Positions 18,505 to 62,246 of a DNA stretch of 64,000 bases are shown in pieces (the stretch's first letter is position 1; each line of letters starts with the position of its first letter). Source of the stretch: Fibrobacter sp. (lineage in GTDB: Bacteria > Fibrobacterota > Fibrobacteria > Fibrobacterales > Fibrobacteraceae); contig JAAYJH010000030.1 of assembly GCA_012523035.1 (NCBI GenBank), positions 1 to 64,000 of the forward strand. The letters are read 5' to 3'. The position numbers and the translations under genes were made by a program. The notes beneath the pieces are model-generated. The model saw only the letters and a program-made list of their open reading frames with translations. It was not told where the DNA came from and did no database searches.

Positions 18505-19496
18505 AAATGTGACCAAGCTTGAGCTTTAATTGGAACACCCAATCCTTTAGAATTAATCATGGTTACACCCTGGCCTTTTTTCACCCAACCTATATGAGTG
18601 GTAAGACCGGGTAATTCTTTATATAATATACTATTTGAAGTGCTACTTGTAAAAAGAATTTGATATTCCTCACCCCCATTTAAGGCAAAATCCAGAGGAG
18701 AAAGTCCATAAAATGCTGACAAAGCTAAAACTTCTGGATCTATAGGTAAAAAATCCCTATGAATGGATATAGATACACCAGAAGCTAAAGCAATATGATG
18801 CAATTCAGAACTCAAGCCATCACTGATATCAATAGTGGCGTGGATTCCTAGATTTTGCGATAAAAGGGCTCCAATGTTTTCGTGAATTTGTGGTTTTAAA
18901 TGATAATCCACTAATTTACGCCATTTTTCTATGTCTTGAGGGGCATTTAAAAGAACCCAAAGCCCCGCCGCCGACTTTCCTAGTGTTCCCTGTACAAAAA
19001 CACCATCTCCAAGTTGAGCTTTAGATCTTTGTAACGGTTCTTTTAGTTCTGTGTTTCCTAAAAGAGTGGTCGAAAAAAAACCTAAATCACTCACCACGGT
19101 GTCTCCTCCCAAAAGGCATATCCCTCTGGAGCTAAAAGCTTGTTGAAAGGCCCTTGCGATTTCTTTATTTTGATTTTTAGTCCAAGATCGATTGAGCGAT
19201 AGCGTTAAAAATGCAATTTTTGCAATTCCACCCATAGATGCAATATCTGATATGTTGGAGATTACATGTTTTTCTACAGCTTGTTCAATACTTGAAAAAC
19301 TAAAATCAAAATGTGTTTTTTCTACAGAGACATCATTGCTAATCAACCAACCATCTATAGCCGCGGCATCGTCTCCTACATCTAGCCAAAAACGATGTGA
19401 AGGGGCTTTTTCATTTAAACTAATACGAGTGGATAGGAGTTCATTTATATAGCGAAACTCCTCTAAATCTATTTTATTTGCTTTGTTTTCGCTCAT
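18501..19496 (-). CDS. thiL: Thiamine-monophosphate kinase
   Basis: ThiL phosphorylates thiamine monophosphate to the diphosphate cofactor. The 331-residue protein has DVGDDAAAID, LISNDVSVEKTHFD, HVISNISDIASMGG (DnxDxxAmGg-like metal site), LLGGDTV, TATIDISDGLSSELHH and GGEEYQILF. The ATG at 19496 (MSENKANKIDLEEF) gives the normal length; a longer frame to 19634 would add 46 atypical residues. pilB follows with a 4-base overlap, which places a vitamin gene in a pilus/repair transcript. Confidence 0.93.
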   Translation of the reverse strand: MSENKANKIDLEEFRYINELLSTRISLNEKAPSHRFWLDVGDDAAAIDGWLISNDVSVEKTHFDFSFSSIEQAVEKHVISNISDIASMGGIAKIAFLTLSLNRSWTKNQNKEIARAFQQAFSSRGICLLGGDTVVSDLGFFSTTLLGNTELKEPLQRSKAQLGDGVFVQGTLGKSAAGLWVLLNAPQDIEKWRKLVDYHLKPQIHENIGALLSQNLGIHATIDISDGLSSELHHIALASGVSISIHRDFLPIDPEVLALSAFYGLSPLDFALNGGEEYQILFTSSTSNSILYKELPGLTTHIGWVKKGQGVTMINSKGLGVPIKAQAWSHL

Positions 19497-19574
19497 GCAT
19501 TTAAATTTAGTGAAAATAAAAGATAAAAGCCATTTATTCATCTCTTTTAAAAATAAAAAACTAATTTTACTAGA

Positions 19575-20006
19575 ATGGGACACATATTTTTTATTAGCAC
19601 CGACTCCAGTAGTAACATTGACGAAATTGCACAATGGACTCTTTTTTGGCTTTTAGATAATGACAGGGCTTTAGACACTTCTTTTTACACCTGTAGCGGC
19701 ATAGAACAAGCATACAAAGCCTTAGAACAACCTCTTAAAAACGGAAACTCTCCTTCTCTTATTGTCATTGACCACCCAGTAAAGCCAAGCCCAAGCATGA
19801 TCCAATTTGCAGAACAACTGCACAACGCTATTCCAGAAACTTGGATTGTCGAATTTATTTCTCCTAATATGCCTATCCCCTCTAAAAAAAACTCCCAGCA
19901 CTTATTCTGGATGACCAAGCCCATTTCTCAAGAAAATTGGATCGAATCTTTGAACTATGTTTTGCTAGAATCTATTAGTCCTCAATGGTCTAAATCTATA
20001 ACTTAA
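19575..20006 (+). CDS. Hypothetical protein, possibly a degenerate receiver-like domain
   Basis: I do not recognise this 143-residue protein. Its strand pattern resembles a response-regulator receiver: a first beta strand IFFIST, SLIVIDHP where the phospho-acceptor Asp would be, TWIVEFIS, and FWMTKPIS with a Lys in the conserved last-strand position. The usual acidic pair after strand one is reduced to a single Asp. It could be a pseudo-receiver or unrelated. It is 20 bases upstream of the TIM-barrel-like gene and probably cotranscribed with it. No ribosome site is clear. Confidence 0.55.
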   Translation: MGHIFFISTDSSSNIDEIAQWTLFWLLDNDRALDTSFYTCSGIEQAYKALEQPLKNGNSPSLIVIDHPVKPSPSMIQFAEQLHNAIPETWIVEFISPNMPIPSKKNSQHLFWMTKPISQENWIESLNYVLLESISPQWSKSIT

Positions 20007-20026
20007 CTATTACGATAGGGGCTCCA

Positions 20027-21010
20027 ATGAAAAAAGGTGTCAGTTATTTTGGTGTTCGCAATCCTAAATGGGTTTTAGAAGACATGAAAGAAATCCTAGC
20101 TTGTGGATATACTCATGTACTACACACTTATTCAGAAACCGATTTTTCTTACTATCAAGAAACAATGGAAAAAATAATCCAAGATTCTGTGGATTTAGGC
20201 TTAAAAGTATATGTGAACCCTTGGGGAATCGGGCGAGTTTTTGGAGGAGAAGCCTTTTCCGAACTGGTAGGAAAAACTCCTTCTATGGCTCAAAAAACGG
20301 TAGATGGGGCTCATAAAATAGCTGCTTGTCCCAATCAAAAAGCTTTTAGAGATTATATGCACCAATGGATTGAAGTAGTGTGTAAAACTTCAATAGAAAC
20401 TGTATTTTGGGATGAGCCTCACTTTTACTTCGAAAAAGGAAATCTTGAAAACTGGGCTTGCCGTTGTGAATTGTGCCAAAGTTTATTTGAGAAACAATAC
20501 GGTTATACAATGCCTCAAAATTTAAGCCATGAAGTTTTAGAGTTTAGAGAAAACTCCCTGCTTGATTTTTTAAAAGAAATGACATACAGTGTTTGCCAAA
20601 AAGGCAAGCGAAATTCGGTGTGCTTGCTCCCCTATTGGTTTCCTGCTGGAATTGAAAATTGGGATAAAATCGCACAAATCCCCTATGTCGATGAAATTAG
20701 CTCTGATCCCTACTGGGAAAAAACGAGTAGTTCTGAAGATGCCATAAAAAATTATCAATACACCTCTAATAAACTTTTCGATTTATGCCAAAAATACCAA
20801 AAAGAAGCCCAAATTTGGATCAAGAATTATCACATTGTGGCCGGTAAAGAAAATGACATTGTAAATGCAACAAAAGAAGCCTATTTAGCTGGCATTCGAA
20901 ATATTTTTGCTTGGTCTTTTAGAGGCTCCGAATACTTATCTTGGCTCCGTTCAGACAATCCCGAACTCGTCTGGAAAACTCAATGTGAAGCTCTCCAGAA
21001 TCTAAAGTAA
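20027..21010 (+). CDS. Conserved hypothetical, probable TIM-barrel (glycosidase-like) protein
   Basis: The 327-residue protein has no signal peptide and reads as alternating strands and helices. Notable blocks are HVLHTYSETDF, VYVNPWGIGRVFGG, TVFWDEPHFY, CRCELCQ, DEISSDPYW and NIFAWSFRG. Acidic residues at strand ends (WDEPH, SSDPYW) recall glycoside-hydrolase-like barrels, but I cannot assign a family. The three close cysteines in CRCELC could bind a metal. A strong AGGGG ribosome site precedes the ATG. Confidence 0.7.
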   Translation: MKKGVSYFGVRNPKWVLEDMKEILACGYTHVLHTYSETDFSYYQETMEKIIQDSVDLGLKVYVNPWGIGRVFGGEAFSELVGKTPSMAQKTVDGAHKIAACPNQKAFRDYMHQWIEVVCKTSIETVFWDEPHFYFEKGNLENWACRCELCQSLFEKQYGYTMPQNLSHEVLEFRENSLLDFLKEMTYSVCQKGKRNSVCLLPYWFPAGIENWDKIAQIPYVDEISSDPYWEKTSSSEDAIKNYQYTSNKLFDLCQKYQKEAQIWIKNYHIVAGKENDIVNATKEAYLAGIRNIFAWSFRGSEYLSWLRSDNPELVWKTQCEALQNLK

Positions 21011-21017
21011 ATAATTA

Positions 21018-22490
21018 TTACTCTTCGTATTCGGAGTCTTCGTACTCATCTTCGTGTTCATCGTCAAAATCATCTTCGTAGTTTTCTTCACTTTCTACAG
21101 CTTGGCCTGTAGCAGGAGAAAGTTTTTGCTTTACAGGAGCTGCGTTTTGTCCAGAAACTTCGAGTGCTGGTTCAGAAGTTTGTACATTCCCAATATAATT
21201 TCTAATAATTCTGGGGGTCACAAAAATGACCAAGTCTTTTTTAATTTGTGACTTTTTGGTGTGTTTGAACAAATAGCCTAAAATAGGGATGTCTTTTAAA
21301 AATGGAACTCCTGTTTCAGATTCTACATTTTCATTTCGAGTCAAACCCCCAATCACCACCGTTTCACCGTCGGCGACTACCACCTTTGTGATGGCTTCTT
21401 GAGTGCTAATTACTATTTCACCTTTAGTGTCATAATCATAGGAGTTATTTTCAGGGTGTAAATCCAATAGAATTCGATTGTCTCCAGAAACATGTGGAGT
21501 CACAGTCAGCTTGATTCCTGTTTCCACTAATTGCGTAGAAGACTCTCCAGAATCATCAATGACTCGAATAGAGATTTTGTCTCCCATAAAAACAACCGCT
21601 TCTGTATTATCAAGAGTAGAAACTTGAGGACTAGCTAAAACTTCTGTAGAAGCATCTCCCATAATATTATTCAATGCAATTTGCATATTATTGTCTAAAA
21701 TACTCGCACTAATAGAAGTGGTTGCTCCTGCTACTCCAGAAACTCCATTATTTGGAAAAGATTGAATAGCACCACTCACTCTTGTCCCAGAGTTTGCACC
21801 AGAAGGAGTCGATGCAACGCCTGGTGTTAAAGATGTAGAGCCCATGGCTGTAGTCCAATCAATCCCTAATTCTCTAGCTAAGTTGCTATTGACCACAACA
21901 AGCTTTGCTGTGATCATAATTTGTAATGTTTCTATATCTAACTCTTCTAAAGCGTTTGCCATCTGCTCTATACGAGCTTCGGTATCATAAACTATAATAG
22001 AATTGCTTCTTTCTACAACAGTTGTTTTTCCCCTTGGTGATTTCATGTTATCCAATACATTTAATAGCTCCGAGGCTTTGGCATGTCTAATAGGGAAGTT
22101 TTTACGAACTAAAGGTGCACTTTTTTCGAGTTGTTCTTCTTCTTCTGTGATTTTCTTTTGCTTTGCTTGGTATGTGGCAGACCTTAAAATAGTGATGTAT
22201 TTATCTTGAATGAGCCATGTTAAGTCATGGAGTTCACATATAATGTCCAGTGCTTCTTGCCAAGTTTTTTGAGTGATTTTTAAATTCAATCGACCTTTTA
22301 CTTCTGGTGTTAAAAGGATGTCAATACCCGACGCCATAGACAAAGAATTAAAGGCTGCTGCAAACTCCATATCTATAAAATTAAAGTCATATAATTTATT
22401 GTTGGGTTTAAGCACTTTGTTAGACGAATTGGCTAACAAAAAAGTGGAAAATAAAGCTACAATGCTTATCATTTTAATAAATGTTTTCAT
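21018..22490 (-). CDS. pilQ: Type IV pilus secretin PilQ
   Basis: PilQ forms the outer-membrane ring through which the pilus passes. The protein has a signal peptide (about 1-20), an STN/N0 domain (about 35-95; IDILLTPEVKGRLNLKI), an N1/NolW-like domain (about 128-195) and the secretin beta domain. The last shows VVVADGETVVIGGLTRNE and VPFLKDIPILGYLFKH, then LVIFVTPRII. An unusual feature is the C-terminal tail of about 25 residues made almost wholly of Glu, Asp and Tyr. At 490 residues it is shorter than proteobacterial PilQ because the AMIN-like region seems to sit in the upstream PilP fusion. It overlaps that gene by four bases. Confidence 0.94.
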   Translation of the reverse strand: MKTFIKMISIVALFSTFLLANSSNKVLKPNNKLYDFNFIDMEFAAAFNSLSMASGIDILLTPEVKGRLNLKITQKTWQEALDIICELHDLTWLIQDKYITILRSATYQAKQKKITEEEEQLEKSAPLVRKNFPIRHAKASELLNVLDNMKSPRGKTTVVERSNSIIVYDTEARIEQMANALEELDIETLQIMITAKLVVVNSNLARELGIDWTTAMGSTSLTPGVASTPSGANSGTRVSGAIQSFPNNGVSGVAGATTSISASILDNNMQIALNNIMGDASTEVLASPQVSTLDNTEAVVFMGDKISIRVIDDSGESSTQLVETGIKLTVTPHVSGDNRILLDLHPENNSYDYDTKGEIVISTQEAITKVVVADGETVVIGGLTRNENVESETGVPFLKDIPILGYLFKHTKKSQIKKDLVIFVTPRIIRNYIGNVQTSEPALEVSGQNAAPVKQKLSPATGQAVESEENYEDDFDDEHEDEYEDSEYEE

Positions 22491-24286
22491 TTTAAACTCC
22501 CATATTTATCGGGCAATGCCATGGAATACCTACGACTGACACCAAACTCTTGAATTAAAAAAAGTATATCATTAGGATTAATTTTAAGGACTTTTCCATT
22601 TAATATTTTGTCTCCTTCTTTAACAGTATAAGAGACTGTTGGATTTTTAGATTCAGCTAAAATAGCAATGGGTTCCTCGGCTTCCCAAATAATACCCACC
22701 AATTCCACTTGATCAATGTTAATCCCTTCTTCTACTAAACCTTTCACTTCTAAAAAAGGATCTCTGCGACCAAAAGAACTATAAGACACTCTGTCCTCGA
22801 TGAAATCTCTAAACTGTGCATTAATAGAATCTAAATCGCCACCTTTTTCAAATGCCAATTGTTTTAATCGTTCTAATTGAATACTCGATAGTTCATCTCT
22901 ATAAGACACAGCTCTTTTATAAACATAGCCTACTTTATTTTCAAGTTCAACTTTTTGAAAAAGTCCAGAGCTTTCTAAATTCACCAGTCTATCTCCAAAA
23001 ACTAATCGTTGCAAGACTTGTGCTTTGTCGCTTGGTTTTGCATAAAACTCTACTTCATCAGAAACCACGATAAGCTCTCTAGCCATGGGACGCAAGTAAA
23101 AAGTTTGAGCTTGAGAAATGATCTTCTTCTCGGTTTCTTCATGTTTTTCTGTAAAGGAATCAAAAGAAAGGGATTTTGAATTTGGACTAAGCCACTTTCT
23201 CTCGTAAATTCCAGTGGGTTTCGCTTCCCAATAAGCTATTCCTTCTATTTTTTTAGCCGTATTTGTTTGTAAAGTTAAGACTCCCTTCCTTACCAAAATT
23301 GAAACTTCCACATTGGGGTGTAGTTCTAGGTTCAAACCATAAGGTCCCCAATAGACCGATTTTACAATACTACCATAGTTTAGGTTAAAAACAGGAGATT
23401 TAGTGGGGCCAGCAAGTCCAATGGTAATAATTTTATTTTTGATAGGGCTTATATTAGAAAGCAATATAGATTCATCAGTTAAAATTTGAAACTGCTCTAA
23501 GCCAAAACTAGAAAGCACGAGCATTTTTTGCACACCCTCTATTAACGCAGAAACTTCCTTGCTTTTTTCTTGATCTTTTGATTTAGGAACAGAAGATGAA
23601 GTGATTGATGCCTTGTCATTTGACGCTACACTAGATTTATTATCTTTGGCACTCTCATTATTTGTCAATTTTGAATTGCTTTTTTCTTGAATTTTATTTT
23701 TTTCATTTTCTGTTTTTTCCTGTGCTTCTTTGTTTAAAGTTTTTGACTTTTCTATAGGAATTTCTGCAGTGCTTTTGGAGTCTTTTTGAATGTCCTTCTG
23801 GTTGTTTTCTTTTGCGACTTGTTGAGACCGTTTGTCTTTGACTAGCTTAGACAATGCCCAAGGTTTTTCTGTGGACTTAGGAAGCACAATACTAAAACTA
23901 GTAGGGGTGCTTAACTCCACTTTATTTTTATCATCCTGAATTAAATCTCCTGTCACAAACTCAAATTTCAATAATTTCATTTGTTTTTTGTGTTCTTGAA
24001 AAACTCTCACTTTTTTTAAGAGAGAGGAGGATAAATTTAAGTCTATATACTCCGAACCCAAACTTAAAGCATTTATTTTTAAATCTGTTTGAGAGAAAGC
24101 CACGGTCAAAGTTTTTGATGAGGCATTGTATTGCTGATAAAAACTCGGCAAATTTTTATCGGAATCAAATTGAAAACTCAACTTGCACAAGGCGTTGGTA
24201 CAGTTTAAGCGAAGTTCCTGAATTTGAGTAGAAAAAACGCTTGTAAACAAAAACAAAGTAAAAAGAAGGGTTTTTAGGTGTTTCAT
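22487..24286 (-). CDS. pilP: PilP-type lipoprotein-domain fusion with AMIN-like and SH3-like regions
   Basis: The 599-residue protein begins with a signal peptide (about 1-19). An AMIN-like beta region follows (about 20-135), then a low-complexity Lys/Ser/Glu linker (about 145-245), a second beta region (about 250-350), an SH3-like segment (about 402-465) and a PilP-like end (about 505-595). The PilP part is recognised by RRDPFLEV, VELVGIIW, YTVKEGDKILNGKVLKI and the final beta strands. Normal PilP is a lipoprotein of under 200 residues; no lipobox is seen here. Position between pilO and pilQ, with 4-base overlaps on both sides, supports a bridge between inner-membrane platform and secretin. 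The domain limits are by eye. Confidence 0.75.
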   Translation of the reverse strand: MKHLKTLLFTLFLFTSVFSTQIQELRLNCTNALCKLSFQFDSDKNLPSFYQQYNASSKTLTVAFSQTDLKINALSLGSEYIDLNLSSSLLKKVRVFQEHKKQMKLLKFEFVTGDLIQDDKNKVELSTPTSFSIVLPKSTEKPWALSKLVKDKRSQQVAKENNQKDIQKDSKSTAEIPIEKSKTLNKEAQEKTENEKNKIQEKSNSKLTNNESAKDNKSSVASNDKASITSSSVPKSKDQEKSKEVSALIEGVQKMLVLSSFGLEQFQILTDESILLSNISPIKNKIITIGLAGPTKSPVFNLNYGSIVKSVYWGPYGLNLELHPNVEVSILVRKGVLTLQTNTAKKIEGIAYWEAKPTGIYERKWLSPNSKSLSFDSFTEKHEETEKKIISQAQTFYLRPMARELIVVSDEVEFYAKPSDKAQVLQRLVFGDRLVNLESSGLFQKVELENKVGYVYKRAVSYRDELSSIQLERLKQLAFEKGGDLDSINAQFRDFIEDRVSYSSFGRRDPFLEVKGLVEEGINIDQVELVGIIWEAEEPIAILAESKNPTVSYTVKEGDKILNGKVLKINPNDILFLIQEFGVSRRYSMALPDKYGSLK

Positions 24287-24882
24287 TGGGCTACCTTCTT
24301 TGAAGTATAAGTAGTCAATTTAAACGATACTGAAATAGTGATGGGTGTCCAACCATGTGATTCAGCTTTTTCTAATTCACTTGCAATTCCAGAATAACGA
24401 TTGAGGCGAAGCTCTGTGATTGATGTTGGATAATTAAAGTTGGCTATTTCTGAAAAGAGGTAACCAAGCATGTGATATCCCGAATTGACGACTATAGAAT
24501 ATTTGTTTTCTATGTAATACTCTTTTGTAGTACGACCTTCTGGATTAAACTTTTGGATTTGAACTCCCGAACTTCTAAGGACTGCATACAAGTCCTGTAA
24601 TCGTAAGGGAACTTTTTCTTCTTCTGGAAACATTTCCTTTAGCCGTTCAAACTCGTTTTCTGCTTTGGCGAGCTGCAAACTCAATTCAGCTATTCTATTT
24701 TTTTGAATATTTATTTTTGCTAAATCATCTTCTGCTTCTTTTAACTCTATTTCTAGCTTGGCTTTTTTTGCTTCAAACTCTAACCAATACATTTCATAAA
24801 AAGCAAAGCCCAAACCACCAATTGCCAAAATCATCACAATCACAAAAATATTTTTTTTATCTTTCCAATCAAAATTTCCCAT
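24283..24882 (-). CDS. pilO: Type IV pilus inner-membrane protein PilO
   Basis: The 199-residue protein has one membrane span (about 11-28), a long charged coiled coil (about 32-80), then a compact alpha/beta domain. This is PilO topology. LRDLYAVLRSSGVQIQKFNPEG and the HMLGYLFSEIANF block match the PilO ferredoxin-like domain. With PilN it forms the periplasmic dimer that aligns the motor with the secretin. It begins three bases after the pilN stop. Confidence 0.9.
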   Translation of the reverse strand: MGNFDWKDKKNIFVIVMILAIGGLGFAFYEMYWLEFEAKKAKLEIELKEAEDDLAKINIQKNRIAELSLQLAKAENEFERLKEMFPEEEKVPLRLQDLYAVLRSSGVQIQKFNPEGRTTKEYYIENKYSIVVNSGYHMLGYLFSEIANFNYPTSITELRLNRYSGIASELEKAESHGWTPITISVSFKLTTYTSKKVAQ

Positions 24883-24885
24883 ATT

Positions 24886-25488
24886 CTAATCAGCTCCTTC
24901 AAGACCAAGATCCTTCTTAATACTAGCTTTAATAGTAAAGCTATAAGAATCTTCTCCACCGGTCTTTGTTGTTGCAATAGTAATTAGAGATACCGCACTA
25001 ATACTGACTTGTTTTTCTAACTTCACCATATATTCGGCAACTTCAGAAAAATCATAAGTAAAACCTTTGAGTTCCATTTCGTTAGCACTCAGTTGATTCA
25101 AGTTCACCAACCACATATTAGGAGGTAGTACAGAAGAAATGTTTTCAAAAAGAATTACCCATCTTTTTTTGCTCACTTGAATGGATTTCAAAGCAGTGTT
25201 TTTCTGAGCAATGGCTAATAGCTTTTTATCTAACTCGCCTATTTTTTGCAATAAGGGTTTTTCTTTTTCTACCTCTGCTTGAGTGGATTTTATTTTGATT
25301 TCTAGTGTGCTTATGGTATCATTCATTTGTAGCAGGGCCATAAATAAACCAACTAATAAAACCAAAAGTGCCACCATTGGCCACACAATGCGTCGATCAA
25401 AAACCCATGATAAATCTCTTTTAGCTTTACGGTATTCTGGAGGGAGTAAATTTATTTCTACCGATAATTTATTCTTTTTTCTTGCCAT
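24886..25488 (-). CDS. pilN: Type IV pilus inner-membrane protein PilN
   Basis: The 200-residue protein starts with KLSVEINLLPPEYRKAKRD, the PilN cytoplasmic motif (INLLP.) that docks into PilM. A membrane span (about 35-52), a coiled coil and a periplasmic domain with the typical NMWLVNLNQ and MELKGFTYDFSEVAEYM blocks follow. Its start shares one base with the pilM stop (TAATG). Confidence 0.93.
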   Translation of the reverse strand: MARKKNKLSVEINLLPPEYRKAKRDLSWVFDRRIVWPMVALLVLLVGLFMALLQMNDTISTLEIKIKSTQAEVEKEKPLLQKIGELDKKLLAIAQKNTALKSIQVSKKRWVILFENISSVLPPNMWLVNLNQLSANEMELKGFTYDFSEVAEYMVKLEKQVSISAVSLITIATTKTGGEDSYSFTIKASIKKDLGLEGAD

Positions 25489-26582
25489 TAGAACTTCCTC
25501 ATGGCATACCCAAGAGCGGGTGCGTAAATATTAGACAATGCCTTTGACAAGTCTCCTTCATTGACAACATTTATATCTACGGGGACCTTATCAAAAGGAT
25601 TCAAGTATTCGGTTTCATATCCTGTCCGTTCTTTTATATAATCTACCAAACCTGGTAAGCTAGCACCTCCACCACTCAATAAAACCTTAGATGGTTTTTC
25701 ATCGGACTCTGAATTTGAAAAATAACGAAGCCCAAACTCAAAAGCACCAAGAATTTCTTCGTATGCTAAGTGAAATACGGATTCGATATCCGCTTCAGAA
25801 AAGCCCTCGACTTGAAAACTTTCACCTTTTTCAAATAATTCATGACACTGTGCTGAATCTAAACCCAAATGACGCATCAAAACAGCAATGACTGATTCAA
25901 CAGAAACAGCCGTTAATGCTCTAGTGGAGTGAAAACCTCCATCCATTAAAAACACTAAACTGGAATACTTTTCTCCTATGTTAAACAAAGCAACCGTATC
26001 TTTCTTAGTTTCGGGTTCTACAAAAGCCATATAAACATTAGCCAGTGCAAAGACATCCACATCAATGGCGGTGAGTTGTACATCGACATCTTTATATAGC
26101 TCGGCCCAAGAATCCAAGATAACACTTTTTGCGGCCACCAGATTAACTTTGACCTCTCCGTCTTTTCGATCATAAACCTGAAATTCTAAAATATTATCTT
26201 TGTCGTCAAAAGGTGGACGAGACTCTGCGGTTTTAATGATAATATCACTTTCATTACTAGACTTTGCCACTTTCACAGTCAATTTATCAATCAGTACACC
26301 CGAGGCGCTGTTTATGCCGACTACAAAATCAAGTGCGTCTCTGTCATCTATTTGCCTCGCTAAAATTTTATTCAACGCCTCTCTTAAATTATCCATGTTT
26401 TTAATTTCACCGTCTTCGATTGTGTTTTCGGGCAAAACTTCTATATCTACAGCAGTCACTCGTATTTTACCTGTGTGATGATGAAACACACGAACTAACT
26501 TGATACTGTAATGACCAATATCAATACCAACGGTTTGTCTATCGCCACGAATTCTTGAAATAAAATCAAAAGACAAATTCAT
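25488..26582 (-). CDS. pilM: Type IV pilus actin-like ATPase PilM
   Basis: This cytoplasmic actin-fold protein of about 364 residues shows VGIDIGHYSIKLV (phosphate-1), LTAIDVDVFALANVY, VALFNIGEKYSSLV (phosphate-2) and VLLSGGGASLPGL (adenosine motif). It binds the PilN N-terminus and helps couple PilB/PilT to the platform. The start is uncertain: the ATG at 26582 has GGAG only one base away, and a TTG at 26591 is the alternative. The gene opens the pilMNOPQ operon, with a promoter at 26609-26637. Confidence 0.93.
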   Translation of the reverse strand: MNLSFDFISRIRGDRQTVGIDIGHYSIKLVRVFHHHTGKIRVTAVDIEVLPENTIEDGEIKNMDNLREALNKILARQIDDRDALDFVVGINSASGVLIDKLTVKVAKSSNESDIIIKTAESRPPFDDKDNILEFQVYDRKDGEVKVNLVAAKSVILDSWAELYKDVDVQLTAIDVDVFALANVYMAFVEPETKKDTVALFNIGEKYSSLVFLMDGGFHSTRALTAVSVESVIAVLMRHLGLDSAQCHELFEKGESFQVEGFSEADIESVFHLAYEEILGAFEFGLRYFSNSESDEKPSKVLLSGGGASLPGLVDYIKERTGYETEYLNPFDKVPVDINVVNEGDLSKALSNIYAPALGYAMRKF

Positions 26583-26608
26583 CTCCAACAAGAAAGGTTA
26601 TCATCTCA

Positions 26609-52946: not shown

Positions 52947-53262
52947 AAAACTCTCCAAATCATAGGACTAAGCGGGAGGTAAAACCACAAAAAAGTCCTT
53001 TATTTGCGTATAATATAGTGAACAAATGAACAAGAGTCAAGTAAAATCACCAAGCTTCACAACACCATAGCCAATGAATAAATCATTGAAACAGTAAAAG
53101 ATTTTATTAGATTAAAAAAAACAAAAAATGGAGCTCAAGAGCTAAGAGCCTCATAGTCTTTTATCGTTTAAAAGTTTTTATAGATAGAGTCCTTTTTTAT
53201 TGTATGGTCCCTTAAACTCAAGATCCAGTAAAAAGATATTTAGTCTTGTTTTTTTTGGACGC
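52947..53262. other. Intergenic region upstream of uvrA
   Basis: About 316 bases separate the uvrA start from the stop of the M50-like gene. Apart from the uvrA promoter and a 59-base leader I see no open frame above 20 codons with a ribosome site, no tRNA-like fold and no clear terminator. Bases 53041-53262 are plain AT-rich sequence. Confidence 0.5.
53012..53040 (-). promoter_or_regulatory. uvrA promoter with direct repeats in the spacer
   Basis: On the minus strand TTGACT (53040-53035), a 17-base spacer and TATATT (53017-53012) make a good sigma-70-type promoter. The spacer contains two direct repeats of TTGTTCA-like sequence (GTTC-N4-GTTC). A repressor binding there would block the promoter. 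The spacing is not that of the known alphaproteobacterial LexA box (N7), so SOS control is only a possibility. Confidence 0.6.
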
Positions 53263-54349: not shown

Positions 54350-56755
54350 TTAAAATTGATAATTACCTATTTGGATAAAATAACGATAATCTTTAAACTT
54401 TCTTAATTGCAATATATTTTGATGATCCACTAAACGACTCAAACCAACCCTCACATCCAAAGAATTATAAGCAAAACGAAGGGTAGGCTCTAATAAAAAG
54501 CGATGGTCTCTTATAAATACGCTTGGATTTTCTTCAAAATCTTTTATATACGAAGCAAAAACCCAAAAACCAAAGTAATGTTTATGGAGTCCGATTTGTG
54601 TTCGAAGCAAAGCATAATGATAAGAACTTAATTCTGCAAAGTACCATTCTGTGCTCCATGGACTTGCTGGAATTTGAAATCGATAAACATTATCTATAGG
54701 ATTATAACCCAGTAATTCGGGATACACATAACCATACCCCTCTTTATGATAAAGGCTAAGAGCTCCAATTGCAGCAAGGCCTAAGTTCAAAAAAGGAGTT
54801 GGAGAATGTTTAAACTCAAAATTCACTTGACTTCGATAGTGCATGGGAACAAAGTCATAAATACCAGCATAAATAGATCGCATAGAAAGGCTAGCTTTTA
54901 TACGATATCCATCACCTCCAAACCACTCTTCAAAATTTGGAGTAGAATACTCATAACTAAAAAATGGTTCGACGGGTTTACTCTTTATGTTTAGAATTTC
55001 TTTACCATAATAAAACTGATGCTCTCTAGATGCAAAAGACACTCTAAAATCCAATCGAGTCCAATCACTCACTTGATAAACAAAACCCGTGTTAAAATCT
55101 TTCTTTGACTCCACTAAAAGAGCATTCCATAAAAATTCATTTTGAAGGTAATTTTTAAGAACTTCTATTTTCGTATAATCCACATTAATAAAAAAGCTTC
55201 CTTTTCCATCTAAAAGCCTTGACAATCGAATTTCTGGACGAACACCATAAGAATTTAAGCCATAAAAAGCATCGAGTAAAAACAAATATTCAAACTGATT
55301 AATATATTGCATGTCTATTTTTGAATAAGCATTCACACCTCGAATATTAGATCCAAAGCCTCCCAAATAAATATCGAGAATGCTAGGTGTTTTCGCATCC
55401 ACATAAAGCTCCCCATTTTCTTGCAATTCCAATTTTATATCTTGATAAAGACCAGATTCATAAAGGCTTTTCAAAAAATTTTTGGGGGCTTCTATACCGG
55501 TATCTTTGGGGTTCCAATGTGTTTTAATCTGTGCTTGGATCTCTGCACTTAATGCGTCGTAAGAAGGTTTAAATTGAAACCAAGGAATAATAGAATCCGT
55601 AGATCGAAGGGAAGATTTTTTAGTTAAATTTTTTGCTATCACACCAAGCTTTTTCTCAAAGGCAGTAAAACCTGCTTGAATATAAGCCTCTCGTGTGTTT
55701 TCTGAAATCCGATGAGGACGGAGTAATATGACATTTTTTGGCAAATCCTCTAATGATTCTAAACTTTGTTTCCATATAGTTCTTTTCCAAGGATTTGTGA
55801 CTGTGTCTGTATAGCGTATTGGAATTGGAGTGGATACAATAGAAAGTTCTAAAGAATCCGTTATGGAGGGAATAAGCACTAAAGATGCCCACTCTCCTGA
55901 ATGCCTGTGACCTCGTAAAGGAAGACTTTGATAGATTGTCTTTAAGTTTTTACCCGTTGAAAACTCTGGAGAAATGCTTAAAAAAGCTTTGTTAGGGTGT
56001 ATGGGCTTTCGAGAAAGGCTTTCTTGTATTCTAAATTCAAACCAGTTACGCTGATATTCCAAAGACTCGCGTCCTAAAATTTGCCTTTGAACTTTAAGTT
56101 TCCCTAAAGAATCTCCTTCTATAGAATAACGCCATTGCAAAGTAGGTAGTCCTTTTTTTGCAATAGGTAAAAAGGGAATAAAGTCTTTTGAATCATTAGA
56201 ACCTTGTTCCTTCCCAACAAAATCTTTCAAGTCTTCTTCTAAAAACAAACTTTGAATTTGATCTGGACTAAAACCCGAAACCCATAAAGCAGCCACCCAA
56301 GCCCCCCAGGAAGTGGCTACAATGGAATCTATAGGAATTTGGTACTCCTCAATAGCATACAAAACGCCCAAATGAAACCACGGAGAATGCTCTCCACCCC
56401 CTAAATACAAAACTTTTTTTGGATCTTTTACAGTACGCTTATTAGCAATTGAACTGTTTTTTGACTGCGAAATGACTGGGTCCGTTTTTTTTACAGTGTC
56501 CAGTGTTTTTATAGAATCTGAATCTAATAACACACTCTCAAGAGGAGGACTGGATTCCCCTATGCGTTCATTTTTTCTTTCTTCGTCTGCAGATTTTTTT
56601 TCTGTCATAGACTTTGATTTTTCTTCTTGAAAAGCTTCTACCCTCTCTACTGTATTTTCCTTTAAATGTTGGTCTTTAAATAAAAGTGTCGAATCAGGAT
56701 TTTTTCCCCAAGCAAAGAAACAAAATAAGATGAGTATAAACTTTAGTGCCTTCAT
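54350..56755 (-). CDS. Patatin-like / BamA-like outer-membrane protein with altered active site
   Basis: The ATG at 56755 (AAGGGATC upstream) opens a signal peptide (about 1-17), then a low-complexity charged region (about 25-105) and a patatin-like domain. It shows YLGGGEHSPWFHLGVLYAIEE (about 118-138) and VATSWGAWVAALWVSGFSPDQI (about 147-168). After a POTRA-sized region, about 300 residues form strand-rich, aromatic-ended repeats typical of a 16-strand barrel. This is the PlpD layout. Compared with active patatins, GGGxRG reads GGGEHS, GxSxG reads ATSWG, and no DGG/DGA is seen, so hydrolysis is doubtful. It is the last gene of the ABC/PilT-like unit. Confidence 0.78.
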   Translation of the reverse strand: MKALKFILILFCFFAWGKNPDSTLLFKDQHLKENTVERVEAFQEEKSKSMTEKKSADEERKNERIGESSPPLESVLLDSDSIKTLDTVKKTDPVISQSKNSSIANKRTVKDPKKVLYLGGGEHSPWFHLGVLYAIEEYQIPIDSIVATSWGAWVAALWVSGFSPDQIQSLFLEEDLKDFVGKEQGSNDSKDFIPFLPIAKKGLPTLQWRYSIEGDSLGKLKVQRQILGRESLEYQRNWFEFRIQESLSRKPIHPNKAFLSISPEFSTGKNLKTIYQSLPLRGHRHSGEWASLVLIPSITDSLELSIVSTPIPIRYTDTVTNPWKRTIWKQSLESLEDLPKNVILLRPHRISENTREAYIQAGFTAFEKKLGVIAKNLTKKSSLRSTDSIIPWFQFKPSYDALSAEIQAQIKTHWNPKDTGIEAPKNFLKSLYESGLYQDIKLELQENGELYVDAKTPSILDIYLGGFGSNIRGVNAYSKIDMQYINQFEYLFLLDAFYGLNSYGVRPEIRLSRLLDGKGSFFINVDYTKIEVLKNYLQNEFLWNALLVESKKDFNTGFVYQVSDWTRLDFRVSFASREHQFYYGKEILNIKSKPVEPFFSYEYSTPNFEEWFGGDGYRIKASLSMRSIYAGIYDFVPMHYRSQVNFEFKHSPTPFLNLGLAAIGALSLYHKEGYGYVYPELLGYNPIDNVYRFQIPASPWSTEWYFAELSSYHYALLRTQIGLHKHYFGFWVFASYIKDFEENPSVFIRDHRFLLEPTLRFAYNSLDVRVGLSRLVDHQNILQLRKFKDYRYFIQIGNYQF

Positions 56756-56765
56756 AATAGATCCC

Positions 56766-57770
56766 TTAAGGTATTTTAGAGGGATCAAATGCTAATTTTA
56801 GTGCATTTTCTTTGGTGATATATTGAGATTCCACTAATTCTTTTAACGACATATCTATAGATAGCATTCCCTCGGCACTCGCAGAAGCAATCAAAGAAGG
56901 CAACTTAAAGTGTTCACCACTACGGATAAAAGAAGAGATATTTTGAGTGTTATATATAAGCTCCCATGCAGCAAACATTTGAGAAAAATCTATTGCAGGA
57001 ATCAAATGTTGCATGACGATAGCTTTTAAATTGGTGCTCAACAAAGACCTTGCCATCTGCATATCACTTACAGATTCAAAAGAAACAAGAGCGTCTAAAA
57101 CTCCCATCGAATTACCCGCAGTAAAAGTAGCCACTACTATAGCTCCCGCTCCTGCTGCACGCAAGGCGTCTATAATGTTTTCTTGTTTTAAATCACCTAG
57201 CCAAAATAAATCAGTCCCCGCCAATAAACCTTGCTTGAGTGTTTTAGAAATATCTTCACTTTTAGCTTGCATTAACAATGTATCTCCAGTTGGAATTTCC
57301 ATTTCGCCAACAGGATCCAAAAATATTGCTCTTAAAACTCTATTTTTACAAAGAGCACTCACATAAGAAGAGGCCGAAGTTGTTTTTCCCGAACAAGGAG
57401 TGCCCGCAAATAAGATCAATCCAGAACTCACCTCTAAAAGCGAAGTCAGTGCTTGCGGAGCCCCTAACTCTTCAAATGAAGGACACTTAGAAAGAATAGG
57501 TCTAAAGCTTGCTTGTTTTCCAAATGCTCCTCTAGAATACCGTACCCGCCAATAAACATCGTCCCACGGTCCAGCAGTAAACACACCTGACTCTGCGTCT
57601 AGTTTTTTTAAAAAAGCATCTAAAGTTCCAAAATAAATTATAGGAGCATCTTCAATTAAACGCACTTCGTCAAATAATCGAACAGCTGGAGTAAAGCCTT
57701 CGACAATAATTAACTCACTCGCACCTGCTTCAAGAGTATAACTTAAACATTTTTCTATGGGTGATTTCAT
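56766..57770 (-). CDS. Divergent PilT-like ATPase
   Basis: The 334-residue protein aligns with PilT/PilU over its length. Walker A is intact (GTPCSGKTT, 123-131; Lys 129). Other motifs are altered: the Asp box is LDPVGEME; Walker B is LFWLGDLKQ (about 188-196), with Asp in place of the catalytic GE of IGEMRD; and the His box reads ATFTAGNS without histidine. The C-terminal part keeps LLSTNLKAIVMQHLIP, the PilT LL..LKavvsQ.Ll element. ATP binding is likely; hydrolysis is uncertain. It overlaps the other PilT-like gene by four bases. Confidence 0.78.
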   Translation of the reverse strand: MKSPIEKCLSYTLEAGASELIIVEGFTPAVRLFDEVRLIEDAPIIYFGTLDAFLKKLDAESGVFTAGPWDDVYWRVRYSRGAFGKQASFRPILSKCPSFEELGAPQALTSLLEVSSGLILFAGTPCSGKTTSASSYVSALCKNRVLRAIFLDPVGEMEIPTGDTLLMQAKSEDISKTLKQGLLAGTDLFWLGDLKQENIIDALRAAGAGAIVVATFTAGNSMGVLDALVSFESVSDMQMARSLLSTNLKAIVMQHLIPAIDFSQMFAAWELIYNTQNISSFIRSGEHFKLPSLIASASAEGMLSIDMSLKELVESQYITKENALKLAFDPSKIP

Positions 57771-59437
57771 ATTTCAACCTTTTTTGAGGGCTTATACGCC
57801 ATAAAGCGACGCACATCAAAAGCTCGTTTCCATGCTTCGGAGCCTTCAATATACCCCAAATCCACCAAGTTTTGCAAAGAATCGTCTAAAGTTTGTGCAG
57901 TCGATTTCATGGAAGCTAAAGTCGATGGAATTTGCATGAATTCCATTTTTCTAATTAAACTGGCTATTGTTGTAGATACCTTAAGAGCTTCTACAGCCAA
58001 AACCTCTCCCTGCTTATCTACAATAGGTATTAAATGCTGCACAATGACTCCTTTGAGCTGCTCCGCTAAAGATTGAGCTAATGGTTGTCTTTGCATTTCT
58101 GATACAGAATCCAAGAATCGAGTTAAAATACCCAAAATATTTTTCCCAGAAGTGACCGCAAAAACTAATACCCCTGCATTAGCAGCTTGAAGCAAAAGTC
58201 CTAATTCTTCTATGTTTTCGATGTGATCAAAAAGAATCAAATCAGCCCCATCATTGATAGCGGTTCGAGTAGCCTGTGCTCCAGTAGAAGCGTGTAAACC
58301 TATTTCTTTTTGGGCTATAATTCCGTTTGGATTTTGCAATAATCGTTCTATGGGTTTTTCTATTGTTTGAATATAAACACCTTTTTGAGAAGCAATTGTT
58401 TCTGCAAAAGTAGCCATCGTTGTGGAACGACCACTAGACGCTTCTCCTGCAATGATGACTAAACCACTTTCTAAACTCAAAAAGTCTTTGCAAAACGCGG
58501 GTAAATTCAAATCTTCTAATGCAATACTTTGTAAAGGAATCAATCGAATGGCTAAATATGGAGTCACCCCTAACCATGTCACTGAAAGTCGTGCTCTACC
58601 AGCACCTTTTAAAGCAAAAGTTTTACTAAAGTTTCTACCCATTGTAAATTCTTTACTATCCACAAAACCACGCGAGGCTTCACTTAACCACTGCATCAAC
58701 TGATTAGAATCGATTTTAGTTTCACTCACATAATGCAGAGATCCCGATTGATACACTGCAATAGGAGAATCTAAGTGCAAATAAACATCGGTAGAGTTAA
58801 ACTGTCTTGCATAAGATAAAATTTGAAGCAAAGACATCGAGGGGTCTATAACGCGTGGCACCTCTATTTCTAAGTCTCCTAAACCCGAATTAATAGCAAA
58901 TTGATCTGGTAAAGACTGTTTTTCTTTTGTGAGGTCATCTGTTTCTTCGCGCTTTAATTGAACCCGAGCGATATTGGTGGATTCTAACCCAGCAACAGCT
59001 TCGACTTGTATAGGTGGTGTCCCAGAAGTATCTGCATAAGGGTTATTTCCCTCTATTTGAAGTTCTGTTTTTGCTGTATTTTTTATGATAGTATTAGCCG
59101 TAACAGGGTTGAGCGTCTCTTTTTTAGAGACTCCCAAAGATTCTTTAGTTGGAGTGGGCTTCACCGCTACAGATGCTCTACTAAAAGTGTTTGAGGTTTT
59201 AGAATCAGAGATTTTATTGGACTCTGTGTTAGTGCTCGAGTCTTTGGATTTTTTAAGTTCTAGTTTTTTAACATATTCTAAAACTTGTTTGTACATTGCA
59301 GGCTTTAAAAGTCCTGCTTCTACCAAAATAACACCGATATCTTTTGCTTGGGTAATTTGAGGCCAATATTTTTTTATTTGTTCATTGGTTGCCAAGCGAT
59401 TAGAAAACAAAACTTTTGCGATATATTGATTTCTCAT
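57767..59437 (-). CDS. PilT-like protein with N-terminal MshEN-like domain, Walker A lysine replaced
   Basis: The 556-residue protein has an N-terminal helical segment resembling GspE/PilB N-terminal domains (about 1-60; LFSNRLATNEQIKKYW, GVILVEAGLLKPAMYKQVL) and a Ser/Thr/Lys-rich linker (about 62-190). A PilT-like core follows (about 195-540; FNSTDVYLHLDSP). Walker A reads GEASSGRS (331-338), with Arg 337 in place of the lysine. Walker B reads LILFDHIENIEEL without GE, and the His box reads VFAVTSG. LAEQLKGVIVQHLIP is conserved. It probably does not hydrolyse ATP and may partner the neighbouring PilT-like protein. It overlaps the ABC permease gene by four bases. Confidence 0.78.
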   Translation of the reverse strand: MRNQYIAKVLFSNRLATNEQIKKYWPQITQAKDIGVILVEAGLLKPAMYKQVLEYVKKLELKKSKDSSTNTESNKISDSKTSNTFSRASVAVKPTPTKESLGVSKKETLNPVTANTIIKNTAKTELQIEGNNPYADTSGTPPIQVEAVAGLESTNIARVQLKREETDDLTKEKQSLPDQFAINSGLGDLEIEVPRVIDPSMSLLQILSYARQFNSTDVYLHLDSPIAVYQSGSLHYVSETKIDSNQLMQWLSEASRGFVDSKEFTMGRNFSKTFALKGAGRARLSVTWLGVTPYLAIRLIPLQSIALEDLNLPAFCKDFLSLESGLVIIAGEASSGRSTTMATFAETIASQKGVYIQTIEKPIERLLQNPNGIIAQKEIGLHASTGAQATRTAINDGADLILFDHIENIEELGLLLQAANAGVLVFAVTSGKNILGILTRFLDSVSEMQRQPLAQSLAEQLKGVIVQHLIPIVDKQGEVLAVEALKVSTTIASLIRKMEFMQIPSTLASMKSTAQTLDDSLQNLVDLGYIEGSEAWKRAFDVRRFMAYKPSKKVEI

Positions 59438-60237
59438 AAAAAATCTCTCCGACTAAACCACCAAGAAGCAATTCCCAAAAACACCCCAATATAGCCCAAT
59501 GCATAAATACTCTGCCAGACTAAATAAGATTTAGAAACTGTAATATCATGAACCACAAAAGAACTAATATTATATCGATAAAGACCTGGAAAAATTGCAT
59601 GTATCCAGACTGCCAAACGCTCTAATACGACGCTACCAAAACCTTCGATTTCGCCCATTTTTTTTACAAATTGTACTTGTTCTAACAACTGATTAGACAA
59701 ATGCCCCGCAAAATAAACCCCCAAAGTAAAAAGTGTGCTTAAAACTGCAGTGCTAAAGCTAGAAAACAATAAAGCCACTGCGACAACAATAGCCATTTCA
59801 CAAAATATCAAATAAATAGCACTAAGCAAAGACCATGTTGGATTTGAGTGAGTGAAAAATAAAATCAAATAATAAAGCAAAGACAAAAAGATCAAATGAA
59901 CCGCTAAAACTCCTAACAGGCCAAAATATTTCCCTACAATAAAACTCACTCGACTGATAGGTTTTGAAAGCAAGGTTAATACGGTACGACGCTGGATCTC
60001 TTTTTGAACTAGACTGATTCCCACAAAAACAGCAATCAAAAGCCCTGATAAAGACATAATCGAAAGGGTTGTCGATTTAATAACATGTGCCCGATCAAAA
60101 ACAGACCATTCTCCGAGCATGATGCTAAAAAAAACCAAAGCAATGGCTAAAAAGAATAAATTATAAAGAATTTTATCACGAATGGACTCGCGAAAGGTGT
60201 TTAAAGCTATAACCACAATATGCTTAAGACTCTGCAC
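59434..60237 (-). CDS. ABC-2 type transporter permease
   Basis: The protein (about 267 residues) has six hydrophobic segments and the ABC-2 start pattern (ALNTFRESIRDKILYNLFFLAIAL). VQKEIQRRTVLTLLSKPISRVSFIVGKY is the conserved cytoplasmic segment of the NosY/GldF-type permeases. The GTG at 60237 has AGGAG seven bases upstream; TTG at 60243 is too close to it. It overlaps the ATPase gene by 14 bases. Substrate unknown. Confidence 0.85.
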   Translation of the reverse strand: MQSLKHIVVIALNTFRESIRDKILYNLFFLAIALVFFSIMLGEWSVFDRAHVIKSTTLSIMSLSGLLIAVFVGISLVQKEIQRRTVLTLLSKPISRVSFIVGKYFGLLGVLAVHLIFLSLLYYLILFFTHSNPTWSLLSAIYLIFCEMAIVVAVALLFSSFSTAVLSTLFTLGVYFAGHLSNQLLEQVQFVKKMGEIEGFGSVVLERLAVWIHAIFPGLYRYNISSFVVHDITVSKSYLVWQSIYALGYIGVFLGIASWWFSRRDFL

Positions 60238-61141
60238 GAGCAATCTCCTCTGTCAAAACATCTTCTAAACTGGGCCTTTGTATATCTATTTTTTGAATAG
60301 AAAGGTTGTTGTCGACACAAAATCGTAAAAACTCATCTTTAACTTGAGAAGATTTGCACAACCATTCTCCGGATTGCACTCCCTTTTTGACGCCTCTGAT
60401 TGGAGCCTCTTGAAGTTCTGGACCTTGAATAAAAACATGATACTCAGCTGAATGAGAATCGGTAATGCTATGAATCTTTCCTTCTCGAACGACTCGACCA
60501 TCTACAATCATCCCCACCCTATCACTAATGGACTCTACATCAGATAATAAATGGCTAGAATAAAACACTGTCACTCCCTCTTGATTGAGAGATAAAATGG
60601 CATTTCGAACATCTCTTCTACCCATTGGGTCTAAGCCACTCATGGGCTCGTCTAAAATCAAAAGCTTTGGCTTAGAAAGAATCGCTTGAGCAATGCCTAT
60701 GCGTTGGACCATTCCTTTGGAATAAGTGCGTAAACGACGATCTGCCCAATCTTTATTGGCATGCACTAATTCTAGAGCCCAATCTATTCGCTTCTGCAAT
60801 TCAAGCCCAGAAAGCCCCACTAAATGCCCATAAAAAACCATTAATTCCCGAGCCGTTAGGTAATCATAAAAATAAGGGTGTTCTGGAGAATAACCCACAA
60901 GGCGACGAATTTCAATACCTCTTGCTGAAGCTCCCGAAATCTCTACACGCCCAGAATCATAAGTCAAAAGCCCTGTTAATATTTTAATAGTCGTGGATTT
61001 TCCTGCCCCATTTGGACCTATAAATCCATAAATGGAGCCTTTGGGCACTGAAAGACTCACATCGGTCAAAGCCTTTTTGGCTTGCATTAAAAATCCCGTT
61101 CGATAAGTTTTATTTAAAGCTTCTATTTCTATCATTTGCAT
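60224..61141 (-). CDS. ABC transporter ATP-binding protein
   Basis: The 305-residue protein has Walker A GPNGAGKST (about 44-52), Q-loop VGYSPEHPYFY, signature YSKGMVQRIGIAQAIL, Walker B LLILDEPMSGLDP and the H-loop FYSSHLLSDVE. It ends in a C-terminal domain common to ABC-2 exporter ATPases (such as GldA and NatA types). It begins one base after the small membrane protein's stop and shares its transcript with the permease. Confidence 0.92.
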   Translation of the reverse strand: MQMIEIEALNKTYRTGFLMQAKKALTDVSLSVPKGSIYGFIGPNGAGKSTTIKILTGLLTYDSGRVEISGASARGIEIRRLVGYSPEHPYFYDYLTARELMVFYGHLVGLSGLELQKRIDWALELVHANKDWADRRLRTYSKGMVQRIGIAQAILSKPKLLILDEPMSGLDPMGRRDVRNAILSLNQEGVTVFYSSHLLSDVESISDRVGMIVDGRVVREGKIHSITDSHSAEYHVFIQGPELQEAPIRGVKKGVQSGEWLCKSSQVKDEFLRFCVDNNLSIQKIDIQRPSLEDVLTEEIARAES

Positions 61142-61142
61142 T

Positions 61143-61352
61143 TCATCGTTTTTGTTGTTTTTTGTGAATCACATAATAAACTATAGATCCTAACACATAA
61201 AAAGCAATGCCCAAATAAAACACTGGATTTAAATTAAATCCTTCTAATGCAGGAAACAAATTATACAATGTGGAGCCGCCAAAAAAATAAATCAATACGA
61301 GTATTGTTCCTAAAACACGAAGCACATAAGTTGTAATCACCAGTTTGCTCAT
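61143..61352 (-). CDS. Small two-span membrane protein
   Basis: The 69-residue protein starts MSKLVITTYVL at an ATG with GGAG six bases before it. A longer frame begins at TTG 61403 but that start lacks support. Two hydrophobic segments (about 3-22 and 43-62) surround a short loop, ending in basic KKQQKR. It resembles no family I know. It opens the six-gene unit and may be a transporter accessory subunit. Confidence 0.65.
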   Translation of the reverse strand: MSKLVITTYVLRVLGTILVLIYFFGGSTLYNLFPALEGFNLNPVFYLGIAFYVLGSIVYYVIHKKQQKR

Positions 61353-61493: not shown

Positions 61494-62246
61494 TTACTTT
61501 TGATGGATAGCAGAAGCAAATTCTTGCATTAAAGTGCTTGAATTATTAATTTCTAACACTGTCCCAATCACCACAATTTGGGCTCCTGCTAAAACCCTTT
61601 GTTGGGCCACTTCAGGAGAACGAATTCCTCCCCCTACGATGATTTTTAAATCGGTTGATTTTTTAGTATATACTATATGTTCAAGAGGGACAGGTTCTTC
61701 TGCTCCACTCCCCGCCTCTAAATAGACATAACGCATCCCCATCAGCTCTGCAGCCACAGAATGTGCCATAGAGAGTTTTGGTTTATTAGCAGGTACAGGA
61801 AAAGTACCACTAATAAATTCTACAGCGGTGCGTTTATCACTATTGATGAGCTGATAGGCCGTAGGGATTGCCTCCATTTTTAAGGAGCGCACCAAAACAC
61901 CACCCCGCACTTGCTCATCAATTAAATAATGAGGATTACGACCACTCACCAAAGTCATAAATAACATTGCATCAAAACCAGGGACCACTTGACTAGCTCC
62001 ACCAGGAAAAAGTATAACAGGAATATCCACTTTTTCTTTTAAGGCTTGAATCTGCTCAAGCATGTTAAAATTCCCCATAAAAGAACCACCCACCAAAAGT
62101 AGATCTGCTCCATTTTTAAAAGCTCGAATCCCCGCTTGAATAAAGCTAGAATCATGAGCTGTATCGGGGTCTAAAAGCACAGCAAACAAAGCCCCTTTTT
62201 GCTCCATTCCGTTATTTAATCGTGTCTCTATGGGTCCTAATTTCAT
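61494..62246 (-). CDS. Geranylgeranylglyceryl/heptaprenylglyceryl phosphate synthase family protein
   Basis: The 250-residue TIM-barrel protein matches GGGPS group II: LFAVLLDPDTAHDSSF, ADLLLVGGSFM, PVILFPGGASQVVPGFDAMLFMTLVSGRNPHYLI, VYLEAGSGAEEPV and IIVGGGIRSPEVAQQ. The family joins a polyprenyl diphosphate to sn-glycerol 1-phosphate, the first ether-lipid step in archaea; bacterial homologues occur in Firmicutes and the Bacteroidetes side of FCB. Product and chain length here are unknown. It overlaps alaS by four bases. Confidence 0.9.
   Translation of the reverse strand: MKLGPIETRLNNGMEQKGALFAVLLDPDTAHDSSFIQAGIRAFKNGADLLLVGGSFMGNFNMLEQIQALKEKVDIPVILFPGGASQVVPGFDAMLFMTLVSGRNPHYLIDEQVRGGVLVRSLKMEAIPTAYQLINSDKRTAVEFISGTFPVPANKPKLSMAHSVAAELMGMRYVYLEAGSGAEEPVPLEHIVYTKKSTDLKIIVGGGIRSPEVAQQRVLAGAQIVVIGTVLEINNSSTLMQEFASAIHQK

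Follow-up and report, generated by a model that had tools for sequence, protein, structure and literature searches.

Organization of the locus

The DNA analysed here, hereafter the window, is a 64,000-nucleotide stretch of a Fibrobacter sp. contig (GenBank assembly GCA_012523035.1, JAAYJH010000030.1, positions 1 to 64,000). Six open reading frames (ORFs), all of them present as earlier outlined, occupy its minus strand from position 61352 down to 54350 (Table 1). The preliminary description had presented them as a tightly packed series running in a single direction, and this was borne out: neighbouring ORFs are separated by gaps of 1–10 bases or overlap by 4–20 bases. A single base lies between the small gene and the ATPase gene, whereas the ATPase and permease genes overlap by 14–20 bases, depending on whether the permease starts at the TTG at 60243 or at the codon at 60237. 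The permease gene overlaps pilT1 by 4 bases, as does pilT1 with pilT2, and a gap of 10 bases precedes the last gene when its start is placed at the ATG at 56755. For the small gene, whose longer ORF reaches 61403, we took the ATG at 61352, which is preceded by GGAG. Its product had no Pfam or NCBIfam match. Promoter and terminator scans gave no more matches than were obtained in shuffled sequences.

Table 1. Genes of the six-gene unit and other features of the window
Feature	Coordinates	Strand	Description
Small membrane protein	61143..61352	-	Two likely TM segments, read from sequence
ABC ATPase	60224..61141	-	PilH-like by context; PF00005 (ABC_tran), E 4e-29
ABC-2 permease	59434..60243	-	PilI-like by context; PF12679 (ABC2_membrane_2), E 8e-9
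PilT1	57767..59437	-	556 aa; T2SSE/PilT family; helical N-terminal domain (1-68), disordered linker, PilT core
PilT2	56766..57770	-	334 aa; T2SSE/PilT family; Walker A kept, Walker-B Glu replaced by Asp, His box lost
PlpD-like Omp85 protein	54350..56755	-	Patatin PF01734, E 4e-10; ORF opens at 56788
PcrB/GGGP-synthase family gene	61494..62246	-	Outside the unit; upstream neighbour; adjacency lost in several related genomes
Type IV pilus (T4P) genes	16594..26591	-	Away from the unit and non-contiguous: PilB 16594-18516, secretin 21018-22490, PilO/PilN/PilM 24283-26591

Upstream of the unit, alaS and the PcrB/GGGP-synthase gene overlap by 4 bases (61494-64000, minus strand), and the alaS–pcrB–unit neighbourhood is kept in several genera and disrupted by insertions or rearrangement in others. 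On the other side, a single minus-strand ORF of 1722 aa (47790-52958) apparently consists of two tandem UvrA copies, that is, a fused double UvrA.

Conservation of the unit in Fibrobacteraceae

A search of 61 genomes revealed PilT1 orthologues in most genera of Fibrobacteraceae, in neighbourhoods with the same six-gene order. When a profile of the permease was run against GTDB species genomes, 80 named loci were obtained. All six genes were found in the same order and orientation in 62 of the 62 Fibrobacteraceae loci that were not cut by contig ends; a further 6 loci from this family run off a contig end and lie outside that count. By contrast, 11 loci from Candidatus Fibrimonadales contained the exporter part only (small gene–ATPase–permease, or the remnant left by a contig end); a single locus from Acidobacteria (L153) contained ATPase and permease genes. 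Fibrobacter intestinalis ATCC 43854, a cultured strain, has the six-gene unit as well (locus L127). The six-gene unit is specific to Fibrobacteraceae. Scattering of these genes in relatives, which the preliminary description had named as grounds for giving up the idea of a single unit, was looked for and did not occur within this family; its view of the genes as one unit with an unusual combination of members was upheld.

The order is also retained in two very divergent genera (L060 and L067), where PilT1 identity falls to 29% and 24% and where, in L060, the small gene could not be recognised by sequence. The members of the unit differ in how fast they change. Permease identity is 70-80% across most of Fibrobacteraceae and 62-64% in these two genera; in the family without them, PilT1 is about 43-66% identical and the outer-membrane protein 31-53%. 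The 4-base overlap between the permease gene and pilT1 recurs in most genomes. We found no earlier description of the six-gene unit in the part of the open-access literature that was searched, and it seems not to have been described before.

PilT1 and PilT2 are predicted to be non-motor proteins

The preliminary description had called the two PilT-like proteins relatives of pilus-retraction ATPases, the first with a Lys-to-Arg replacement in its Walker A motif. Their relationship to PilT holds and the replacement was confirmed, but both proteins lack the catalytic Glu and the His boxes, so that they are predicted not to be motors. In PilT1, the Walker-A residue is Arg in 64 of 66 members and Lys in one, and the Walker-B catalytic Glu is absent from all 66. 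Among 65 PilT2 members, 63 retain the Walker-A Lys, whereas 64 have lost the Walker-B Glu, in most cases to Asp. No PilT1 or PilT2 member has the first His of the His box. Walker and His-box motifs have been reported as necessary for function (PMC6762196). Both proteins fall below the cut-off of the TIGR01420 model (319 bits), with scores of 185.6 for PilT1 and 124.9 for PilT2, while two ordinary PilTs encoded elsewhere in this genome reach 485 and 451 bits. These sequence features suggest that PilT1 and PilT2 have lost ATP hydrolysis. Both genes are nevertheless under strong purifying selection, like the exporter genes: across ten close pairs, omega was 0.024-0.056 for PilT1 and 0.004-0.062 for PilT2.

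In the AF2 model of PilT1, an N-terminal domain of four helices, predicted with confidence, is joined to the PilT core by a disordered linker. The best fold match of the model is PilT4 (6ojy; E 1e-30, TM 0.88 of target), and PilU (9n32) is also among the best PDB matches; PilT2 was assigned the PilT fold by sequence only. Part of the AIRNLIRE-type motif, which matters for retraction in PilT, is retained in both proteins. From the fold and this partial motif, we infer that they may be non-motor rings or adaptors. The pair thus resembles the PilT/PilU retraction ATPases in fold, in tandem arrangement and in part of this motif, but differs from them in the missing catalytic residues and in the helical domain added to PilT1. 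The possibility that this domain is a c-di-GMP-binding MshEN domain was considered; it had no Pfam match and its similarity to the PilB N-terminus was weak, and we do not claim this identity.

A tandem PilT pair with intact Walker A and B motifs occurs in a sister family (f3), unlinked and elsewhere in the genome. One His-box position of its PilT1 is occupied by Asn. The first member of this pair has the same N-terminal domain as PilT1 of Fibrobacteraceae in 5 of 5 loci, and this shared domain is the one feature that points to a derivation of the Fibrobacteraceae pair from a catalytic pair of the f3 type; in the tree, each Fibrobacteraceae PilT group is coherent, and the branch linking the pairs of the two families is without resolution. 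It is likely that such a pair was recruited between the permease gene and the outer-membrane protein gene and that catalysis was lost later. The neighbours of the catalytic f3 pair were uninformative across genomes. At one locus (L065, 9027-14669), the Walker-intact pair is divergent from genes for a histidine kinase and a sigma-54 response regulator, an arrangement like that of PilS/PilR.

The outer-membrane protein

The product of the last gene consists of a signal peptide, a disordered linker, a patatin-like domain, a POTRA domain and an Omp85 barrel of the 16-strand type. The patatin-like domain matched PlpD (5fqu) with an E value of 3e-10, and the AF2 model of the protein (mean pLDDT 81) had Omp85 fold matches. 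The earlier proposal of a PlpD-like outer-membrane protein is supported by its patatin domain, POTRA and 16-strand barrel. The active-site Ser is present in 63 of 65 members; the first Gly of the GxSxG motif is often Ala, the oxyanion motif is altered and the region of the Asp could not be aligned. Like PlpD/FplA-type (type Vd) proteins, it combines a signal peptide, a patatin-like domain, one POTRA and an Omp85-type barrel, but it differs from them in these altered motifs, in its unrecognisable catalytic Asp, in the length of its disordered linker and in being encoded in a putative operon with exporter and PilT-like genes. The patatin domain of PlpD was found to remain in the periplasm (PMC11116518), a location that would suit a link between the two membranes.

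In the sister family, a gene for an Omp85-patatin homologue lies near the exporter genes without a PilT gene; a gene on the opposite strand intervenes. The association of exporter and outer-membrane protein therefore probably predates the insertion of the PilT genes.

The exporter across Fibrobacterota

The permease was present in 130 of 151 Fibrobacterota genomes, nearly always as a single strong match: the exporter is older than the six-gene unit and is single-copy across most of the phylum. To compare its distribution with that of PilM, we counted PilM as true above 70 bits, because actin-like relatives score about 60, and read the genera by hand. Outside Fibrobacteraceae, 19 genera had both permease and PilM, 7 had neither, 3 had PilM only and none clearly had the exporter only (Fisher p 8e-5, or 4e-4 with the unclear genus g12 counted against the association; these values are a guide only, as genera are non-independent and some genomes incomplete).

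In deep families, the exporter genes are followed by a gene for a TPR-like, membrane-anchored protein. Type IV pilin genes are its direct or close neighbours in f3 (6 of 6 genomes), f4, f9 and f13; the last two families have the exporter genes, this gene and a pilin gene in one stretch. As the gene make-up of f9 and f13 is that of pilA–pilG–pilH–pilI of M. xanthus, we call the gene PilG-like and the exporter PilHI-type, names that rest on context and make-up and not on sequence orthology to M. xanthus PilG, PilH or PilI. In that organism, pilGHI is needed for S motility and EPS (PMC5544727), and the PilGHI proteins have been described as required for pilin translocation (PMC3724824). A PilG-like match was found in 134 of 151 Fibrobacterota genomes, although some of the weakest matches may be other TPR proteins, and the genomes that lack it largely overlap with those that lack the permease. 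In the genome studied here, the match (G000:C72:18429-18908) is unlinked to the unit. In Fibrobacteraceae, the exporter and PilG-like genes are unlinked, and no pilin gene was found beside either the unit or the PilG-like gene.

The pilus link put forward in the preliminary description gains support from genomic context, namely the PilGHI-like neighbours of this phylum-wide exporter and its co-occurrence with PilM. Within the scope of this comparison (Fibrobacterota and the Acidobacteria locus L153), the exporter resembles Myxococcus xanthus PilGHI in comprising an ABC ATPase, an ABC-2 permease and a third protein, in adjoining a pilin gene in f9 and f13, and in tracking pilM. By contrast with PilGHI, the PilG-like gene of Fibrobacteraceae lies elsewhere, and two apparently disabled PilT proteins and an Omp85-patatin protein have been added.

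Discussion

Fibrobacter needs close contact with cellulose. Fibrobacteraceae are without flagella, and their attachment to cellulose is helped by pilins (PMC4704652; PMC3079729). We consider that there is about an even chance that the unit is a Fibrobacteraceae form of a PilHI-type T4P accessory exporter, equipped with non-motor PilT proteins and an outer-membrane partner and probably serving pilus-based attachment, its tie to T4P being suggested by gene context. The ATPase and permease would form the exporter, with the small two-TM protein probably an inner-membrane partner and the PilG-like gene located apart from the unit. The PilT pair, recruited next to an older PlpD-like partner and presumably without ATP hydrolysis, although PilT2 possibly still binds ATP, might dock at the pilus platform or at the exporter and tune pilus assembly or retraction. 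With its patatin-like domain in the periplasm, the Omp85 protein would bridge the inner-membrane part and the outer membrane, and the likely outcome would be control of the pili used in attachment to cellulose. It counts against such an accessory role that in Fibrobacteraceae neither the unit nor the PilG-like gene lies beside pilin genes, that three genera have PilM without the exporter and that Candidatus Fibrimonadales retain the exporter without the six-gene unit. A bolder version, which we regard as improbable, is that disabled PilT hexameric rings act as a non-hydrolysing clutch on the ABC-2 permease or the pilus platform; an exporter that ends in an Omp85 protein would then have taken over pilus-motor rings as structural or regulatory components, and the whole would be a trans-envelope machine of a new type.

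As the main alternative, the exporter may have left the pilus system. The ABC-2 pair would then transport a lipid, glycan or lipoprotein, the disabled PilT rings would serve the permease as a scaffold in the cytosol, and the Omp85 protein would form the end at the outer membrane. The unit is closed in 62 loci and includes inner- and outer-membrane parts, the exporter and patatin-barrel genes are near each other in f3 without PilT, no pilin lies nearby in Fibrobacteraceae, and the permease is far better conserved than the PilT-like proteins. However, the presence of the exporter tracks that of PilM across the phylum, its relatives are found together with PilG-like and pilin genes, and two PilT-family proteins would be an odd choice of scaffold; we therefore judge a self-contained exporter to be a real but doubtful possibility. 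The exact gene order, held at very high divergence, and overlaps of the type associated with translational coupling speak against mere transcriptional bundling, in which exporter, PilT-like pair and outer-membrane protein would be co-expressed surface genes with no shared complex, and the upstream alaS–pcrB neighbours have, by contrast, been lost in several genomes. Such bundling seems unlikely to us, even though conserved operons do not require complexes, the members change at strongly different rates and an opposite-strand gene separates exporter and patatin-barrel genes in f3. The preliminary description had also likened the exporter to GldA/GldF, which would suggest a gliding-type surface motility machine. 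This likeness found no support as a specific relation: with 182 bits against a curated GldA cut-off of 402.6 (TIGR03522), the ATPase scores below even its match to the generic DrrA model, and what it shares with GldA/GldFG exporters is the general ABC-2 architecture. F. succinogenes, moreover, has not been shown to be motile (PMC3079729), and a gliding machine is very improbable.

The unit supplies candidates for the control of attachment in Fibrobacter, and its conserved, apparently non-catalytic PilT proteins would mean that a motor family can be converted into non-motor parts. A phylum-wide PilGHI-like set, together with the fixed association, in one family, of the exporter with seemingly disabled PilTs and an outer-membrane protein, also offers natural variants with which to ask what the exporter does for pili. 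The job of PilGHI is unsettled, and the literature first held this set to be special to Myxococcus; the PilG-like genes that neighbour type IV pilin genes in f3, f4, f9 and f13 (L178, L179, L182-L188) represent a pilGHI-like set outside Myxococcota. The Acidobacteria MAG locus L153 carries an ATPase–permease–PilG-like trio with no pilin gene nearby. In Candidatus Fibrimonadales (L145, L152 and L143), the same exporter has other partners: its genes are followed by a lipoprotein-like gene of 264 aa and by a gene whose 800-aa product has multiple TM segments and an NPCBM domain.
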